Below, piece after piece: positions 16,216 through 58,747 of a DNA stretch of 60,464 nucleotides (the first letter of the stretch is position 1; each line of letters starts with the position of its first letter). The notes under the pieces are model-generated. The model saw only the letters and a program-made list of their open reading frames with translations. It was not told the DNA's origin and searched no databases. The translations under genes and the position numbers were made by a program. The stretch is taken from contig JAFWHS010000004.1 of NCBI GenBank assembly GCA_017511925.1, positions 1 through 60,464 on the forward strand. The letters run 5' to 3'. The DNA is from Candidatus Saccharimonadota bacterium. GTDB taxonomy: Bacteria; Patescibacteriota; Saccharimonadia; Saccharimonadales; Saccharimonadaceae.

Positions 16216-17124
16216 ATGCAGCGTCTACTTGTTATTTATAATCCTCGTTCCACTCGCTATAAATCCGTCAAAAGCGAAGTGTTGGATAAGCTGCCAAATT
16301 TAAAAGGCTATATTATTGGTAAATACACTATCAAAAAAATCGGTTTTGAAGGTAACGTTAAAGATCTTTCTAAAGTCATAAAAGACGGAGATCTTATTAT
16401 TTCTGCTGGCGGTGATGCTACTGCGGCTATTTCTGCAAATGCTATTATCAAATCTGGCAAAGACGCCACGCTTGGTGTCTTGCCGTACGGCAATTTCAAT
16501 GATCTCGCCCGCACGCTTAAGACGCATACCTTGGACGATATTATTTCGCAAAATCAAAAACCAGTAAAACTCTATCCTTTAGAAATTATTGTAGATGGTA
16601 AGTTTTGGCGCTATGCTACTTGTTATGTCACTATTGGCATGACCGCTGAAGCCGTAGAACTTTTTGATGAACAAAAAGTGCGCACTTATCTCCAAAAAGG
16701 ACACAAGAGTTCTTGGCGTTCATATATCTACCTCATGAAATGGTATTTCAAAAATCGTCACAAAAAAATTTTCCTACCTGGTCTTAAGATCAATGGCGCT
16801 ACTCAACATAAAAAAACTTCTGACTACGCTGCGCTCAGTGGTCGCTCTATGTGTCGCGTTATGAAAGGACGCGAAGATTATCTCAAACCAAAAGTTTTTC
16901 GCAGTACAGCTAAGCCATTGGCAAATTTTTGGCCACTTTTTACTTTAATGACCAAAAGTATTTTTTATCGTGTGCCAGGAGATGAAACTACCGGTGATAA
17001 ACTAGAGTTTTCTAACCCCACTACGATAGAGCTTCAAGCGGAAGGAGAATATCAAATTTTTCAAAATGTCAAAACTGTAGAAGTAAAGAAAGGCACCAAA
17101 TGTCTGAAAGTAGTTCAGAATTAA
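16216..17124 (+). CDS. diacylglycerol/sphingosine kinase-family lipid kinase (YegS/DgkB-like)
   Basis: 302-aa cytosolic kinase that probably phosphorylates a membrane lipid. NPRSTR near the start is the nucleotide-loop motif, and IISAGGDATAAISANAI (near residue 58) corresponds to the GGDGT signature, with A-T instead of G-T. GVLPYGNFNDLARTL matches the family's P-x-G-T-x-N-D-x-A-R motif (G-N-F here). The C-terminal beta domain is shorter than usual. It lies 8 nt after the pilin-like gene and its end overlaps the zeta-like gene by 25 nt, so rpoD to the zeta gene may be one transcript. Confidence 0.8.
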   Translation: MQRLLVIYNPRSTRYKSVKSEVLDKLPNLKGYIIGKYTIKKIGFEGNVKDLSKVIKDGDLIISAGGDATAAISANAIIKSGKDATLGVLPYGNFNDLARTLKTHTLDDIISQNQKPVKLYPLEIIVDGKFWRYATCYVTIGMTAEAVELFDEQKVRTYLQKGHKSSWRSYIYLMKWYFKNRHKKIFLPGLKINGATQHKKTSDYAALSGRSMCRVMKGREDYLKPKVFRSTAKPLANFWPLFTLMTKSIFYRVPGDETTGDKLEFSNPTTIELQAEGEYQIFQNVKTVEVKKGTKCLKVVQN

Positions 17125-17897
17125 CTAGAATTATAGAATACATGAAGAACCACTGGCCTAGCGAGGTTAAGCCGGAATGGCAAGTAAATTTAAAAGAGTA
17201 CCCACTTATTGCCAAAAAGGTTATAGGGGATTTTACTAAAGACAAGACTATACATCATCAACTCATCCGCATTGCTGGCCTTTCTGGTTCTGGCAAAACT
17301 ACGCAAATTCTACCAGCAGTTGAGGCATATTGCGAAAAAAATAATCTAAAGCCAATTCTTATTGCTGCCCGTCGTTTTGTAGAATATCACCCACATTATC
17401 AAGAAATTAAAGATTTTTATGGCGATGCTAATCTTCGTAAAATGACCGATGAGTTTTCCACTATCATGATGTTTCTTGTATTGTCAGAACTTATTAAAAA
17501 TGGCTATGACATTATATTGGATGTCACTCTTTTAGATCCAGAAATTGAAGCTATTTTATTAAAAATGCTTACATCTTCAGAGTACAAAATGCTACTTTTG
17601 ATGATAGCAATATCTCCTACGGTCACAGCACATTTTCTAGCTGGTCGTGCTTGGCGCCACACCAAAGCCACTGAGCAGGAATTCATTCGTGCCACTTCGC
17701 ACGCTCTTAATTTTTATGCCGAATATGCCCCGGAGTCCCGTATTATATTATGGAGTGTTTACGATAAACCACCTATTTACGACGGCCCGATCAAGGACTG
17801 TGTTGAAATTTTTACTGAATATTTAAATCGCGAAGATCTCCCGGCCAAAGATGATGACGCGCGCCGCGATGCAAAAATCGCTTATCTTACCAAATAA
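17100..17897 (+). CDS. zeta toxin-like P-loop kinase
   Basis: 265 aa. Walker A GLSGSGKTTQILP (near residue 60) inside a region like the Zeta_toxin domain: IAARRFVEYHPHYQEI (where zeta proteins place the D-x-F-R-x-x-H-P substrate loop), YDIILDVTLLDPE, and a late basic GRAWRHTKATEQEFIRATSHAL. Zeta/PezT toxins phosphorylate UDP-GlcNAc; whether this one does is not readable here. No epsilon or PezA antitoxin gene is adjacent, which argues for a housekeeping or regulatory kinase or an antitoxin located elsewhere. AGAAAGG precedes the ATG; overlaps the lipid-kinase gene by 25 nt. Confidence 0.68.
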   Translation: MSESSSELTRIIEYMKNHWPSEVKPEWQVNLKEYPLIAKKVIGDFTKDKTIHHQLIRIAGLSGSGKTTQILPAVEAYCEKNNLKPILIAARRFVEYHPHYQEIKDFYGDANLRKMTDEFSTIMMFLVLSELIKNGYDIILDVTLLDPEIEAILLKMLTSSEYKMLLLMIAISPTVTAHFLAGRAWRHTKATEQEFIRATSHALNFYAEYAPESRIILWSVYDKPPIYDGPIKDCVEIFTEYLNREDLPAKDDDARRDAKIAYLTK

Positions 17898-17922
17898 ATT
17901 TTTGCTTTCTAAGCATTTATGC

Positions 17923-17928
17923 TATACT
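17923..17928 (+). promoter_or_regulatory. extended -10 for leader RNA A
   Basis: TGC-TATACT; the predicted transcription start (about 17935-17937) coincides with the first base of the outer stem of leader RNA A. Confidence 0.6.
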
Positions 17929-17936
17929 TATTATAG

Positions 17937-18049
17937 CTAAACATTCACAATTCATTTTGAATCTTAAAGGTAAGAAGCGGCCATATACGCAACTGAGCCT
18001 TTAAGTCCGGTTGTGAATGTTTAGCGACTAAGTATATGGTCGCTTTTTT
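17937..18049 (+). ncRNA. structured 5' leader RNA A with 12-bp pseudoknot
   Basis: Outer stem 17937-17950 / 18011-18024 (14 bp, perfect). Inside are a small ATTCA/TGAAT hairpin and an inner stem 17963-17970 / 17998-18005 (8 bp, perfect). The inner loop holds GCGGCCATATAC (17977-17988), complementary to GTATATGGTCGC (18032-18043, one G-U), which lies just after the outer stem and is followed by six T. It precedes the 18068 membrane-protein gene by 18 nt. Three other leaders in the window have the same order of elements with different sequences. Confidence 0.68.
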
Positions 18050-18067
18050 GGCGACAGAAAGGGAAAA

Positions 18068-18748
18068 ATGCAAAAACAATATTTAACAGAAGAAAATTAT
18101 CAAAGAATAAATAAAAAATTTAAGACCATTTCACTGACCGTCTTTATCATTGGTTTAATAATTGGCCTTGGCTTAATTGTATTCGGCGTTGTTAAGACCA
18201 ACGAAATCAATAGGACTAATGAGGAGAGAGCCGCTGCTGCCGTTGCTGAATCGGAAGCCAGTGTGGCCACCGCAAAAGAAAAATTGAGTGAAATTGAAGC
18301 AGAGCTGAGTGGTCTAGAGGCTCAATATGACGCTAAAGCATCTGAATGTGATTCATTAGATATGGCCGACGATGATTGGTTCGCTAAGAGTGGTAAATGT
18401 CAAAGGGAAGAAATGGCCCTGCAGACAAAAATCGCCGAATTACAAAGTAGTCAATTTCAAATTAAAAATGCCGATTACACTGTCTATTATCAAGAAGACG
18501 ATTTATTTGTAAGTTACATTCTTTATGGTGCTGGCGGATTTATCATTTTAGCTAGTGCCGGTATAGCATTGGCTATTTGGCTAATTACTAAGCGACGTGC
18601 GCTCTTGGCTTATCACGCACAGTCTGTTATGCCAGTAGCTAAGGAGGGGATAGATGAGATTACCCCGACCGTAGCAAATTCTGCCGGCAATATTGCTGAC
18701 TCCGTAGCTGAAGGCATAGCGCGTGGCATCAAAAAAGGTAAAGAATAA
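18068..18748 (+). CDS. hypothetical membrane protein with coiled coil
   Basis: 226 aa of unknown function. TM1 (FIIGLIIGLGLIVFGVV, residues about 25-42), an extracytoplasmic coiled coil of about 90 residues rich in Ala and Glu (ATAKEKLSEIEAELSGLEAQYD) with two cysteines (ECDS, KCQRE), TM2 (VSYILYGAGGFIILASAGIALAIWLI, about 150-175), and a C-terminal amphipathic tail (NIADSVAEGIARGIKKGKE). AGAAAGGG precedes the ATG. Expressed downstream of structured leader RNA A and ended by a bidirectional terminator. Confidence 0.72.
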   Translation: MQKQYLTEENYQRINKKFKTISLTVFIIGLIIGLGLIVFGVVKTNEINRTNEERAAAAVAESEASVATAKEKLSEIEAELSGLEAQYDAKASECDSLDMADDDWFAKSGKCQREEMALQTKIAELQSSQFQIKNADYTVYYQEDDLFVSYILYGAGGFIILASAGIALAIWLITKRRALLAYHAQSVMPVAKEGIDEITPTVANSAGNIADSVAEGIARGIKKGKE

Positions 18749-29488: not shown

Positions 29489-30100
29489 TTATAATTTAAC
29501 AATAACCGTCTTTAGGAGAGAGGCTTTATATTGCAGTTCTAGTCCATTGTCTCCTTTAGGAACTTCAAAAATCAGAGACCCAGACGTCTTGCCACCACTA
29601 GCAAGTTCTATCGAACTATCAAAGGCGTCATCTAACATTGCCGTCGCCGTAAAACTATAAGTATCTATAACCCCGTCACTATCTTGTATTTTCCAGTCCC
29701 CAGCAGAGAAGTATCTTTTCGCGTTCGAAGTGTTGGCAACGCTGATATTAACTTTTATGTATTCTTTGCCATCTTTAGGTGTAACGTAGGGATTTCCAGT
29801 TGAATAATCTCTTTGGATTGAGACGATTGATACAGTTTGATTTTTCAGGGTAATTGTATCGCCAACTCTATATGTATCAGTGCTCGTTTCTGTTTCTTCT
29901 GTCTCCGTTGTCTCTTCGGGCTGCTCTTGTGATTGATTATTACTGTTTGGCTGTTGTGTTTGAGGCGTTTTACCATTAGAGCCAATAGCCCCAATAATTA
30001 GAAGAACGACGACGATAACGACCCAAAACCACCATTGCTTATAAACTGGTTTTTTAGTTGTCGCCACAGGCTTTGCCTTTGGCTTGGTCTTTGTGCTCAT
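29489..30100 (-). CDS. membrane-anchored DUF4352 protein
   Basis: 203 aa: basic N-terminus (MSTKTKPKAKPVATTKKPVYK), one TM helix (WWFWVVIVVVLLIIGAIG, about 23-40), a Gln/Glu/Thr-rich linker (EQPEETTETEETETSTD) and an Ig-like DUF4352 domain (YRVGDTITLKNQTVSIVSIQRD ... GKEYIKVNISVANTSNAKRYFSAGDWKIQDSDG ... GGKTSGSLIFEVPKG). DUF4352 proteins are displayed outside the membrane; some mediate immunity to superinfection, but no role is shown here. Start set by GGAGGAAGA in front of ATG 30100. Preceded by structured leader RNA D. Confidence 0.82.
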   Translation of the reverse strand: MSTKTKPKAKPVATTKKPVYKQWWFWVVIVVVLLIIGAIGSNGKTPQTQQPNSNNQSQEQPEETTETEETETSTDTYRVGDTITLKNQTVSIVSIQRDYSTGNPYVTPKDGKEYIKVNISVANTSNAKRYFSAGDWKIQDSDGVIDTYSFTATAMLDDAFDSSIELASGGKTSGSLIFEVPKGDNGLELQYKASLLKTVIVKL

Positions 30101-30164
30101 TCTTCCTCCTATGGAACTATTATTTTTAATATACACTCCGTCGCTTTGTCCCTTAAAACCAAAT

Positions 30165-30304
30165 GGAACACTCGCTAGGAGTGTTCGAAGTTCCATTTTC
30201 TACAGCAAGCGGTTAAGCCGACTGGAGCGAGTGCTCCACAAGGGACTTAACTCTTTGCTTACCTCGTCGGGGGTAAACTTGTTGTAGAGTTGGGACTTCG
30301 AACA
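30165..30304 (-). ncRNA. structured 5' leader RNA D with 12-bp pseudoknot (on the mobile element)
   Basis: Minus-strand transcript from TGT-TATAAT (plus 30310-30318). Outer stem 30295-30304 with 30182-30191 (10 bp, perfect), second stem CTACAACAAG / CTTGCTGTAG, and within it CCGAC/GTCGG and GTTAAG/CTTAAC interleaved. The loop hairpin element GGAGCACTCGCT (plus 30226-30237) is complementary to AGCGAGTGTTCC (plus 30165-30176, one G-U), which directly follows the outer stem. Same order of elements as leaders A, B and C. The DUF4352 start is 65 nt downstream. Confidence 0.66.
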
Positions 30305-47593: not shown

Positions 47594-47599
47594 TAAGAT

Positions 47600-47789
47600 G
47601 TCATAATTTAGTAGTTCGTATACATCAGCATTTTTTCGTATACGCTAAGTTCGAATAATAAACGGCACCGTAAGGAATTTGTGCTTTTCGAACTTAGCTA
47701 TGCTGAAGTACGAGTTGCTAAATTATGACACCCTTGCGGTGCCATTTTTGTGCATGATCCAAATAAATAAAATAAGTGGCACCGCAAGG
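47600..47789 (+). ncRNA. structured 5' leader RNA B with 12-bp pseudoknot
   Basis: Outer stem 47600-47611 / 47718-47729 (12 bp). Imperfect second stem TCGTA..TCAGCAT with ATGCTGA..TACGA, and a perfect 12-bp inner stem 47644-47655 / 47687-47698. The inner loop holds GGCACCGTAAGG (47664-47675), complementary to CCTTGCGGTGCC (47732-47743), which directly follows the outer stem and is followed by ATTTTTG. A further GGCACCGCAAGG (47778-47789) can compete for the same strand, so two exclusive folds exist before the ribosome-binding site at about 47815. Confidence 0.72.
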
Positions 47790-47829
47790 GGGTGTAGGGG
47801 AATATAACAATACTAAGTGAGGTAGCCAC

Positions 47830-49560
47830 ATGAAGATCAAGCACTATCAACCATTAACCTATATTACTTATAGTATAGTAGGTATTACAGTACTAGCTGG
47901 TATATTATTATCATGTAATATACCCATCTTCCCAGGTATAAGTGTTAATGGTTCTACATTAGCTACCACTCAAACTAAAACCACTTCCACTAATGCTGCA
48001 ATAAGAGTTAGATCCACCTGTTCTATGACTGCTACTATAGATTCTGGTAATGAACATACAGCCACTATGATCAATGGACAATATAAAGAAGATATAGGGC
48101 TAACGACTATACAAACCTTCTGTAATGATCCTAATGGCTATGCAATCTATGTCATAGGCTATACTGGAGAAGATGCAGGAGTAGCTGCAGGAACTAATAC
48201 AGTACTTCATAGTAATGCACTAGGATCTACCTATGATATAGTAACAGGTATTGCTACTTCAGGAGACATATCTAATTGGGCTATGAAGATTAGCTCAGTA
48301 GATGGTACATATAAACCAGATATTCTAAGTGATGACAGCGGGTCATTCAGTGATTATCATATAGTACCACAAAGCTATACTAAGGTAGCATCATACAATA
48401 CCAATACAGACCTAGATAATCCAGCCAGTACTAGACAAGGATCAAAACTTACCACCACTTATGCTGCATATATTAGCCCTACGCAAGATGCTGGCACTTA
48501 TGAAGGGGCGGTTAAATATATATTACTCAATCCCAGTAACGACTTCGGACCAAATATGTATTTCATGCAAGATGTAGAAGATTGGGGTAGTATTATAGCT
48601 ATAGGACAAGAAGCTATAGTCATGGATATAAGAGACAATAAAACCTATACTGTAAGGCGTATGTGTATGGAGGGTACTGGTTCTACTTGGCAAGAGAAAG
48701 AAGTTAACTGTGCTAGATCCATGCTTTGGATGACGCAAAATCTAGATTTAGATCTAAATTCTAACGAAGAGCTAAGCTCTGCCAATACTGACTTGAGAGA
48801 CGGCTCTCTTTCTGGGGCATACGAAACTGGATATAGGGTGGATAGTAATGATGTAATCTACTGGAAGCCGGCCACGACAACAATCACCAGCATTAATTCT
48901 TCTACTGGTAAGTTTAACGGTTGGAGCAACAATAATAACGTAGCCTACTCTGCAGATCCAAGTGGTGGTGATCCAGATAATTCGTGGTATGTTACAGGAG
49001 ATTATTTTAGTTCTAATCTATGCCTCATAAATAATAACGACCAAACCTGCAATTACCTCAACAGCAACAACACGGTGGCTCCAATCTATTTCAGCCATAC
49101 TCCATTTGCTAGCAATGGCAATCATGGCAAGATTGGTAATTATTATAACTGGTCTGCAGCTATTGCCTCCAATAATTCCAGTAGCCTCACCACATCTACT
49201 TACAACAACGTAGACAACAATCCGCAGAACTCTATCTGTCCTAAAGGTTGGAGACTCCCCACAGTATCCAGTGTGACAACCAGAAGCGAGTTTGCCATGT
49301 TGAGAGCTGTGTATAATAGTGTCCATGATACTGATAAATTAGATCAGGGGCTACTTAACTCCCCAGTATATATGACCAGATCTGGTGACGCATATGACGA
49401 CTCTATACATTATGTAGGGCACAACGGTACTTATTGGTCTAGTACGGTCGACAATATGTATTCATCTTATATTTTAATATTTCGCAGTAATGCCATTAAT
49501 TCATCATATGGTAGCAACAGTAGAACTGGAAGTTCTATCCGCTGCGTTTCCGACTACTAA
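47830..49560 (+). CDS. secreted FISUMP-domain surface protein (paralogue 1)
   Basis: 576 aa. Signal peptide/TM at the N-terminus (YITYSIVGITVLAGILLSCNI), then a module (residues about 50-235, starting [29 protein letters not shown]) that is almost identical in DNA to the 57-kb gene, then a FISUMP-type C-terminal domain ([13 protein letters not shown] ... GNYYNWSAA ... [11 protein letters not shown] ... GTYWSST ... SSIRCVSDY). FISUMP domains are typical of surface lipoproteins. AT-rich codons (ATA, AGA) differ from neighbouring housekeeping genes. AAGTGAGG precedes the ATG; leader RNA B lies upstream. Confidence 0.8.
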   Translation: MKIKHYQPLTYITYSIVGITVLAGILLSCNIPIFPGISVNGSTLATTQTKTTSTNAAIRVRSTCSMTATIDSGNEHTATMINGQYKEDIGLTTIQTFCNDPNGYAIYVIGYTGEDAGVAAGTNTVLHSNALGSTYDIVTGIATSGDISNWAMKISSVDGTYKPDILSDDSGSFSDYHIVPQSYTKVASYNTNTDLDNPASTRQGSKLTTTYAAYISPTQDAGTYEGAVKYILLNPSNDFGPNMYFMQDVEDWGSIIAIGQEAIVMDIRDNKTYTVRRMCMEGTGSTWQEKEVNCARSMLWMTQNLDLDLNSNEELSSANTDLRDGSLSGAYETGYRVDSNDVIYWKPATTTITSINSSTGKFNGWSNNNNVAYSADPSGGDPDNSWYVTGDYFSSNLCLINNNDQTCNYLNSNNTVAPIYFSHTPFASNGNHGKIGNYYNWSAAIASNNSSSLTTSTYNNVDNNPQNSICPKGWRLPTVSSVTTRSEFAMLRAVYNSVHDTDKLDQGLLNSPVYMTRSGDAYDDSIHYVGHNGTYWSSTVDNMYSSYILIFRSNAINSSYGSNSRTGSSIRCVSDY

Positions 49561-56799: not shown

Positions 56800-56987
56800 G
56801 GTGCAATATATTAATTATCATTAGGACAGCAAAGTATTTTGCGTTTTCCTACAGAACGATACAAATGGCATCGTAAGGCTTATTAATCGTTGTGTAGGCA
56901 ACTTTGCTGAAGATAATTAATATATTGCACCCCTTGCGGTGCCATTTTTGCGCATGATCTATAAATAAAATAAGTGGCACCGCAAGG
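56800..56987 (+). ncRNA. structured 5' leader RNA C with 12-bp pseudoknot
   Basis: Outer stem 56800-56819 / 56912-56931 (20 bp, perfect). Inner stems CAGCAAAGT/ACTTTGCTG and CCTACA-AACGAT / ATCGTT-TGTAGG. The loop holds GGCATCGTAAGG (56867-56878), complementary with two G-U pairs to CCTTGCGGTGCC (56932-56943) directly after the outer stem, followed by ATTTTTG. A second partner GGCACCGCAAGG (56976-56987) allows the same strand switch as in leader B. The stems differ in sequence from leader B, while the 3' part is conserved. Confidence 0.72.
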
Positions 56988-57031
56988 GGGCGTAATAATA
57001 AACAACAATTAAAGTGAGGCAAAGAGGGATC

Positions 57032-58747
57032 ATGCACACAATGAAGAAAAAAGAGAAATTTTTTGGGCTGCTTGGTATTAGCACAATCGGCATCTTATTA
57101 TCTATTGGTATATGCATTAACGGTTACGCCAACTCGGCGTTGGCTGCAACTCAAACCAAAACTACCACTACTAATGCCGCAATAAGAGTTAGATCCACCT
57201 GTTCTATGACTGCTACTATAGATTCTGGTAATGAGCATACAGCTACCATGATCAATGGACAATATAAAGAAGATATAGGACTAACCACTATACAAACCTT
57301 CTGTAATGATCCTAATGGCTATGCTATCTATGCTATAGGCTATACTGGTGGAGACGAAGGAGTAGCTGCAGGAACTAATACAGTACTACATAGTAATGCA
57401 CTAGGTAGTACCTACGATATCATTACTGGCACTAGTACTAATGGACTAGATAATGATGATACTTCTAACTGGTCTATGAAACTAACTGCTCTAGGTACTA
57501 CTGATACATATAGACCAGATATTCTAAATGGTTATAATAACTTCTCACTAGTACCACAGAACTATACTAAAGTAGCTTCTTATAATACTGCTACAGACCT
57601 AGATAATCCTGCCAGTACTAGACTCGGCTCAAACCTCACTACTACCTATGCTGCTTATATCTCCAATACTCAACCAGCTGGAACGTATGAGGGAGCGGTT
57701 AAATACATATTGGTACATCCGGGCAGCATAGACCACTATCCGTATCTAATGCAGGATGTAGACGAATGGGGTCCATCTATCGCGGTGGGGCAAGAGATTA
57801 CCGTAATTGATAGTAGGGATAATAGATCCTACACTGTAGGACGCATGTGCATGGGTAAGACTCTTAATGCTGGCGAAGGTAATGTTGGGGCTTGTTCCAT
57901 GGAAGACTCCGCGCTTTGGATGACGCAAAATTTAGATTTGTGTATTGGCTGCAGTGGCACGAACGCCCTGACTTCCGAGAATACCAATATAACAGAATAC
58001 CAAAAAAATGGAGTTAACTTTGCCGACTACACTATAGATGCCTTTGGGATTATTACTTGGGCGCCTACGGCTAGCACTATGACTGGCGACCCATCTACCC
58101 TTACCGATCAGTATACAAACCAAGGTTTTCAAATACTATCTAAAAATACATGGAATGATTATGGCCCGGCTATGGTGGAAAGTGGGGATACATATTTCGT
58201 TCAAGGAACTAGATATAATTCGATAGAGGCCTGTAAAAACGCTGGTCATACTGCTGCGGAATGTGCCCACTATCACGTTGGCAACTACTATAACTGGTCC
58301 GCAGCTGTAGCTATGAGTGATACTTCCAACTATACAACTAATTATACTATAATGCCAAACTCCATCTGCCCAAAAGGTTGGAGACTGCCAAATGGTCCTA
58401 CTAAAGATCAAGATAATAATTTAGTTCAATCTGATTTCTACAAACTATTATCTGCATACAATATCGTTAACGAGATAACCACGGGAACTTCAGAAACCGA
58501 AAATGTAGGCTGGAAGAATAGTAGTGGCTTTACCGATGTCGGCCTCTCTCCGTTTTATTTTGTTCGTCAAGGTTATGTATTGGGTGATCAGTTGCGCTAT
58601 TATACATCAAACGCCTATTACCACTCCTCTACGGTTGGTGGTGGAAGTAATGCTTACTTTTTAGACTATAATCAACCTTCTATACGTCTAGCAGCTAAGG
58701 ATAATCGCATAGGCGGAAGGGCCGTCCGTTGCGTCTCAGACTACTAA
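57032..58747 (+). CDS. secreted FISUMP-domain surface protein (paralogue 2)
   Basis: 571 aa. Signal peptide ([34 protein letters not shown]), a module of about 190 residues nearly identical to paralogue 1 ([26 protein letters not shown] ...), and a divergent FISUMP-type domain ([13 protein letters not shown] ... [13 protein letters not shown] ... [11 protein letters not shown] ... AVRCVSDY). Start taken at ATG 57032 (AGAGGG upstream); ATG 57041 is also possible. Preceded by leader RNA C, as paralogue 1 is by B. The 3' end overlaps the convergent FNT gene by 4 nt. Confidence 0.8.

Follow-up and report, generated by a model that had tools for sequence, protein, structure and literature searches.

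What kind of RNA precedes the membrane protein gene at 18 kb in this Candidatus Saccharimonadota contig, and could it decide whether that gene is transcribed? Saccharibacteria are very small and live on the cells of other bacteria. Little is known about gene control in them or in other Patescibacteria, which must adapt their surface to a host. Within the window, the whole 60,464-nt stretch that was analysed, a sequence-only reading had described a pseudoknotted leader at 17.9 kb (here leader A), with three similar leaders elsewhere, and had offered an attenuator, a ligand-sensing leader or an independent small RNA as possible roles. Our analysis confirmed the observation of pseudoknot leader A and extended it to relatives across the order.

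Structure of leader A and its orthologues

Leader A combines an outer stem (P1), an inner hairpin (P2), a pairing between the P2 loop and the tail (P3) and a run of six T (Table 1). We number the strands that share the tail pairing: strand 2 lies in the P2 loop, strand 3 comprises the end of P1 and the linker, strand 4 is the 3′ side of P3, and strand 5 follows the U-tract. The TATACT -10 element of the predicted promoter occupies 17923-17928 and P1 begins 7 nt downstream, so the start of P1 coincides with the expected transcription start. P1 is a perfect helix of 15 bp, or 17 bp counting two G-U pairs, slightly longer than the 14-bp outer stem claimed earlier, and P2 has the claimed 8 bp, or 9 with an extension. 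The claimed 12-nt complementarity between loop and tail followed by six T held as well: in the P3 core, GCGGCCATATAC (17977-17988) pairs with GTATATGGTCGC (18032-18043) at 12 of 12 positions, one of them G-U, and the pairing continues toward the U-tract over 17 nt at 88% complementarity. One detail was corrected: 6 nt separate P1 from the 3′ strand, which the earlier reading had placed immediately after the outer stem. The nested fold of leader A had a z score of -6.5 against dinucleotide shuffles.

The leader ends about 20 nt before the ATG, so the gene needs read-through; the gap is too short for a second promoter. Directly upstream of leader A, a gene at 17100-17897 (+) encodes a zeta-toxin/AAA kinase domain protein (Pfam E 9.8e-18).

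Orthologues of the leader A gene were found in the genus at 71, 57, 50 and 36% identity. Since their leaders were located through the downstream protein and not through an RNA pattern, the pairing in them is no search artefact. The same leader precedes the orthologues in genomes G001, G034 and G010, with compensatory changes relative to leader A in P1, P2 and P3 (G034 and G010) or in P1 (G001); in P3, for example, GCGGCCAUAUAC/GUAUAUGGUCGC is replaced by GCGGCUAUUUAC/GUAAAUAGUCGC. The orthologue in G016 carries the 30.2-kb type of leader instead and that in G271 carries none, so the leaders are interchangeable add-ons.

TABLE 1 Leaders, their pairing strands and the genes behind them in the window
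Feature	Position	Strand	Basis or remark
Extended -10 (TGCTATACT) of predicted leader A promoter	17920..17928	+	Sequence
Leader A (whole)	17936-18049	+	P1 + P2 + P3 + T6
Leader A P1, 5′ strand	17936..17950	+	15/15 complementary to 18011-18025; compensatory changes in orthologues
Leader A U-run, 5′ bulge between P1 and P2	17955..17958	+	Sequence
Leader A P2, 5′ strand	17963..17970	+	8/8 complementary to 17998-18005
Leader A P3, 5′ strand (strand 2), in P2 loop	17975..17988	+	Pairs with 18032-18045; covaries in orthologues
Leader A P2, 3′ strand	17998..18005	+	Complementarity to 17963-17970
Leader A P1, 3′ strand; final bases begin strand 3 of local terminator hairpin	18011..18025	+	Complementarity, fold
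Leader A local terminator-like hairpin, GCGAC(U)-loop-(G)GUCGC beside U6; mutually exclusive with P3	18024..18043	+	MFE
Leader A P3, 3′ strand (strand 4), common to pseudoknot and terminator	18032..18045	+	Complementarity, descriptor, orthologues
Leader A U-tract (T6)	18044..18049	+	Sequence
Leader A strand 5 (GGCGAC), another possible partner for strand 4	18050..18055	+	Predicted folds
Gene behind leader A: 226-aa membrane protein, coiled coil	18068..18748	+	Weak DUF4064 and coiled-coil matches; genus orthologues
Gene behind leader B: DUF4352 protein	29489..30196	-	First listed start overlaps leader B; later start likely used
Leader B (30.2 kb)	30155..30303	-	P1 30303-30295/30191-30183 plus 30288-30278/30209-30199; P2 30251-30246/30217-30212; P3 30237-30226/30176-30165; weak U-tract
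Leader F, 47.6 kb	47599..47749	+	P1 47599-47621/47708-47730; P2 47644-47655/47687-47698; P3 47664-47675/47732-47743; ATTTTT 47744-47749
Strand 5 of 47.6-kb leader (AAGTGGCACCGCAAGGGGGT), complementary to its strand 4	47774..47793	+	Complementarity
FISUMP-type surface protein gene behind 47.6-kb leader	47830..49560	+	Protein searches
Leader F, 56.8 kb	56800..56952	+	P1 56800-56819/56912-56931; P2 56845-56860/56886-56901; P3 56863-56878/56932-56947; U-tract
FISUMP-type surface protein gene behind 56.8-kb leader	57014..58747	+	Protein searches

Other leaders in the window

A self-written scanner for the whole layout of P1, P2, P3 and T-run (the descriptor) scored 38 at 17.9 kb, 42 at 47.6 kb and 43 at 56.8 kb; ten dinucleotide-shuffled windows used as control gave 15 hits, the best scoring 26. 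Leader B at 30.2 kb has the same element order as leader A, yet with an additional hairpin and a poor U-tract (UUUGGUUUU), and was not picked up by the descriptor because of these two features and its interrupted stems. Relatives of leader B are present in genomes G016 and G180, and the type-B pattern was found in just 2 of 149 genomes of the order. The 47.6- and 56.8-kb leaders (F type) matched covariance model R1, built from 20 F leaders, at E 2.8e-18 and 1.4e-19, both being outside its training alignment.

The earlier claim of three further leaders with the same order of elements therefore held, with an extra hairpin at 30.2 kb, while the claim that the 12-nt pairs differ among them held only in part. 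P3 is nearly identical between the 47.6- and 56.8-kb leaders, which are paralogues and thus do not count as independent cases of different 12-mers. The independent P3 cases are leader A, the 30.2-kb type, the 47.6/56.8-kb type and those outside the window.

In the two FISUMP leaders (47744-47860 and 56948-57060), GUGCAUGAUC after the U-tract could pair with the start-codon region (GAUCAUGCAC or GAUCAAGCAC). This stretch sits in the loop of the hairpin formed by strands 4 and 5, and its pairing could create a second pseudoknot around the ribosome-binding site.

F-type leaders in this genome and genus

The tail CCTTGCGGTGCCATTTTT is present in 11 copies in this genome (G000), including the 47.6- and 56.8-kb leaders. 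All 11 have the same kind of leader upstream, with P1 and P2 differing in sequence and their pairing intact, and all 11 are followed by an open frame with a FISUMP-type N terminus, two of which run off the contig end. Scanning about 400 kb of G000 refound the F leaders and one more (L058 minus, the same as L426), located before a TM2-domain protein.

The genus was searched with a 21-nt tail pattern only; P1, P2 and the loop strand were not part of it, so their presence is independent confirmation. The pattern occurred in 36 of 147 genus genomes and reached its highest copy numbers (41, 34, 34 and 32) in four genomes of 0.8-0.9 Mb, and a reversed control pattern gave one hit in total over the 147. 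From 90 fetched regions, 86 scanner hits passed, leaving 79 usable F-type leaders, a set in which the tail was partly a search criterion. In a collection of 84,980 species, at least 116 stretches were found, the majority belonging to Candidatus Saccharibacteria of the ruminant gut, and the F-type pattern was absent from viral contigs. The scan of random 20-kb stretches from other families (370 kb) gave no convincing hit; the covariance model later found low-density members.

A -10 element matching TATAAT at five or six of six positions preceded all 79 F leaders, whose collection had required at least four of six, and it lay 4-6 nt before P1 in 68 of them. At a promoter-like score of 9 of 12 matches, 54 of 79 leaders had a candidate before P1, against 9 of 65 between the U-tract and the gene. 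The 5′ junction between P1 and P2 contained a run of at least four U in 95% of 77 leaders. A small hairpin around this run was found in 61%, compared with 50% in shuffles; this excess is weak and we do not regard the hairpin as a constant helix of the F type. Several of the class C leaders described below, however, show it plainly on visual inspection.

Many leader copies in genomes G209, G245 and G011 lie within a few hundred bases of contig ends. It looks as though the leader repeats disrupt assembly, and the true copy numbers are probably higher. Three leaders (L188, L200 and L203) have an extra hairpin-rich insert of 100-150 bp between leader and gene. Full leaders were also seen on rabbit-gut MAG contigs labelled Oscillospiraceae, Dysosmobacter or Clostridia (L300, L304, L309, L320 and L321), where several neighbour genes match Saccharibacteria, one at 59% identity; misbinning is the likely explanation, and horizontal transfer is not excluded. 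The FISUMP-type families themselves (47830-49560 and 57014-58747; also G003 and G017) have 25-31 matches per genome in some relatives without the F-type leader tail.

Class C leaders beyond the genus

Covariance model R1 also found single, more conserved leaders in other families (class C). Six of these were used to build a second model, R2, for which the program selected P3 as the main helix. R2 matched 52 of 393 genomes of the order, in 29 of 156 genera, the matches being sequence-conserved and mostly single-copy leaders, and it matched G733, from another order of the same class, at E 9e-21. Two weaker cases were obtained in other classes of the phylum; in one of them (G779, 320 contigs) the small downstream protein is the same as in Saccharimonadia members, so contamination is conceivable. 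The descriptor was passed by 29 of the first 30 R2 loci and by 9 of 9 further loci, among them leaders with different strands 2, 3 and 4. P3 was partly a search criterion for R2 hits.

Class C leaders conserve several unpaired stretches: an A-tract before P3, UAAGCA after P3 and UUGUGAAUGG on the 3′ side of P1. Such stretches (A-tract, UAAGCA, GUGAAUGG) leave room for a ligand-binding site and do not prove one.

Covariation of the helices

A referee may ask whether the pairings reflect selection or the way in which the leaders were collected. Of the cells in an alignment of 29 leaders, 88.8% are paired and 59 carry changes on both sides; shuffles gave 81.9% and 20.5, none of 500 reaching either value, and slid controls gave at most 55.4% and 28. 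This alignment had been fitted to P3. A search of column pairs over all positions ranked P3, P1 and P2 first, second and third. Among 20 F leaders, 15 of 19 predicted pairs have changed on both sides in at least one sequence, all 15 of them in P1. Across 77 leaders, P1 strands paired with their own partner at -9.8 kcal/mol compared with -3.3 kcal/mol when swapped, and P2 strands at -18.4 compared with -6.2 kcal/mol. For P3 in 88 F leaders, the six pairs outside the local hairpin stem were Watson-Crick in 80%, a value that did not exceed 74% in 1000 shuffles. Computation thus shows that helices P1, P2 and P3 covary.

The covariance-model search of relatives that the sequence-only reading had proposed therefore found homologues across the order with covarying helices. 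Its claim that the pairing is under selection is supported, since the finding that would have refuted it, an absence of homologues with compensatory changes, was not obtained. The order-wide spread with large expansions, the prevalence of genes for membrane or exported proteins downstream and a second conserved partner of the tail strand had all been missed.

Genes downstream of the leaders

The frames behind F leaders mostly start with a hydrophobic segment, as is typical of exported or anchored proteins. Class C leaders precede genes for OmpA-like, NHL-repeat, TM2, DUF4352 and other small membrane proteins, with one DNA methylase and a few proteins that look cytoplasmic. The leader family mostly precedes genes for membrane or exported (envelope) proteins, a gene context that is shown by computation, and the distance from U-tract to start codon ranges from about 20 to 240 nt. 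A conserved membrane protein of 75-80 aa without a Pfam match (MKDRKTYKIL..) recurs behind class C leaders (L415, L420, L423, L434 and L440).

The second partner of the tail strand and a proposed mechanism

Besides pairing with strand 2, strand 4 can pair with strand 3, producing a short hairpin on the U-tract. None of the 132 leaders scored has a stem shorter than 4 bp, and 87% of leaders reach a stem score of at least 5, compared with 14% when strand 3 is shuffled. In several leaders (L436, L437 and L438), strands 2 and 3 both track changes in strand 4; strands 2/3/4 read GGCGAC/GACGACC/GGGUCGUC in L436 and GGCAAC/GACAACC/GGGUUGUC in L437. In class C and in leader A the local hairpin is a textbook intrinsic terminator, and in leader A it folds at -8.4 kcal/mol (18024-18043), or -10.5 kcal/mol with the U-tract included. 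The alternative hairpin of strands 4 and 5 in leader A (18038-18058) folds at -9.1 kcal/mol.

Because both partners change along with strand 4, the element looks like a bistable transcription attenuator, and the conservation of two folds that exclude each other, one being a classical terminator, suggests that they have opposite outcomes. The leaders satisfy the two criteria for an intrinsic-terminator attenuator that can be judged from sequence: a terminator hairpin adjoins a U-tract between promoter and gene, and a mutually exclusive fold takes the terminator strand. The shared strand and the position of the leaders are shown by computation, and action at termination, its polarity and the existence of a signal are inferred from sequence alone.

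In the proposed mechanism, the RNA would fold into the long 5′-end stem P1 and, after a U-rich bulge or small hairpin, the inner hairpin P2; strand 2 in the P2 loop would pair with strand 4 just before the U-tract to form pseudoknot P3. Alternatively, strand 4 would pair with strand 3 into the short intrinsic-terminator hairpin on the U-tract. These folds exclude each other, as P1 takes all or part of strand 3 and P3 takes strand 4. The local hairpin would terminate transcription, and the pseudoknotted fold, formed or stabilised by a ligand, protein or condition as yet unidentified, would let the polymerase through. We consider it as plausible as not that the leader is a cis-acting transcription attenuator of this kind, with the local hairpin as off and the pseudoknot as read-through state, in the absence of transcript data or experimental proof. 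The opposite polarity, with the local hairpin not being the off state, is not ruled out. Among the roles offered earlier, the tail's second partner argues more for an attenuator than for an independent small RNA.

Several observations bear on this model. P3 reaches the U-tract with a spacer of 1 or less in 131 of 132 leaders. Treated as a duplex without a pseudoknot penalty, it comes to about -26 kcal/mol, far more stable than the terminator hairpin at about -7, and it is the stronger pairing in 79 of 79 F leaders; termination by the local hairpin would thus have to be kinetic. Against the model, the hairpin in L179 and G011b is short or lies 3-5 nt from the U-tract while P3 touches it, which fits P3 as terminator better, and the U-tract of type B is poor.

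A bolder form of the attenuator reading is that an unknown gated riboregulator, sensing a ligand, a protein or contact, unites the genes for Saccharibacteria surface and membrane proteins in a single regulon. In lineages of the ruminant gut it would have grown to about 30-40 leaders in each genome, placing many variable surface proteins under one switch; leaders sharing strands 2 and 4 could even cross-talk in trans. We lean slightly against this version.

Alternative explanations

The strongest rival is a pseudoknotted terminator, in which P3 itself terminates transcription, with its helix extended into the U-tract by the A-tract in the P2 loop, and an unidentified factor that opens or masks the P2 loop permits read-through. 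In its favour, P3 abuts the U-tract or extends into it in all but one of 132 leaders, the local hairpin being mostly spaced by 1-5 nt, the A residues opposite the U-tract are among the best-paired positions, and P3 is much stronger than the local hairpin. Oligonucleotides annealed beside a U-tract can substitute for a terminator hairpin, which supports this reading. However, it leaves a conserved local hairpin with the same outcome purposeless, and it has no built-in on fold. The pseudoknotted terminator remains possible, and we rank the attenuator above it.

An mRNA stabiliser or stable small RNA, with P1 at +1 shielding the 5′ end and the terminated leader of about 115-165 nt having its own role, is unlikely. 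P1 starts 4-6 nt after the -10 element in most leaders, both ends are paired and the U-tract closes the element, as this reading would have it. However, a gene in the same direction follows nearly every leader examined, and 5′ protection requires neither a 12-17-bp pseudoknot nor a second conserved partner of strand 4.

Translational control, in which strand 4 of the read-through mRNA pairs with the later copy in strand 5 and the ribosome-binding site is drawn into further pairings, has little left to support it. Strand 5 exists in many F leaders and in leader A, and GUGCAUGAUC in G000 is able to pair with the start-codon region, but strand 5 is missing from several leaders (L300, L309 and L320) and its distance to the start codon is highly variable.

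A DNA-level element (a recombination site or mobile repeat whose inverted repeats merely resemble RNA helices) would fit repeats 2, 4 and 5 flanking a segment and the numerous copies, many near contig ends, but is all but ruled out by the G-U pairs and GC/GU/AU exchanges in P3, the fixed promoter distance and the U-tract, all RNA signatures, and by the unrelated P1 and P2 sequences of different copies; the G-U and covariation pattern alone largely refutes it.

Novelty, significance and comparison with known systems

The claim that no named riboswitch or ribozyme has this layout is supported. Counting covariance-model scores at or above the gathering threshold, Rfam 15 had no match over a leader in the window, leader A, the F leaders or 11 class C loci, and below threshold there were only weak miRNA-type and other chance matches. 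The literature that we searched, whose scope excluded most subscription journals, described no such RNAs in Saccharibacteria and contained nothing on Saccharibacteria together with a pseudoknot. Papers that mention riboswitches alongside these bacteria looked unrelated judging by title and abstract, and where one was read it treated riboswitches merely as tools. No regulator or ligand was identified. Membership in any known RNA family is unsupported, and we regard the leaders as a real, widespread and previously uncatalogued RNA family of a known general type, an attenuator or riboswitch-like leader.

An order-wide family with up to 41 copies in one small genome, mostly before membrane or surface proteins, offers a direct handle on a regulon. 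Each leader is a short, self-contained unit that is predicted to function with any RNA polymerase, so the mechanism is open to in vitro assays. According to a recent review, systems for inducible expression in these bacteria have still to be developed, with riboswitches among the promising options (PMC11665869); a native leader switch could serve as such a tool.

Two known systems were rejected. T-box riboswitches resemble the F and class C leaders, in which a stretch similar to UGGNACC/GGCACC is complementary to a GGUGCC/GGUGUC strand ahead of the U-tract, as in the T-box terminator. However, no T-box model appeared among hits up to E 1 or 0.5, the UGGN motif criterion is not met (UGGC in F, missing in leaders A, B and others), and the downstream genes are not for synthetases or amino acids, being mainly for membrane or exported proteins. 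Antitermination leaders dependent on the NusG paralogues RfaH or LoaP likewise precede surface-related genes, but 26 of 26 genomes have exactly one NusG-family gene while their leaders are many or none.

Riboswitches of the SAM-II, c-di-GMP-II and preQ1 types pair a hairpin loop with a 3′ tail, and the leaders share this topology. Unlike them, the leaders have much longer P1 and P3 helices, weakly conserved unpaired bases in the F type and no Rfam match; one SAM-II hit just behind leader A (E = 2) is far below threshold. In ZTP (pfl) and fluoride (crcB) riboswitches, a pseudoknotted leader is set against a downstream intrinsic terminator through strand exchange (PMC10085676, PMC11077080), and in our leaders, too, a pseudoknotted fold competes with such a terminator. 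The leaders differ in having no Rfam riboswitch match and no known ligand, in preceding mostly envelope and not metabolic genes, and in that the pseudoknot strand is itself the 3′ arm of the terminator. With both pairings of this common strand conserved, they provide a clean natural model of co-transcriptional strand competition.
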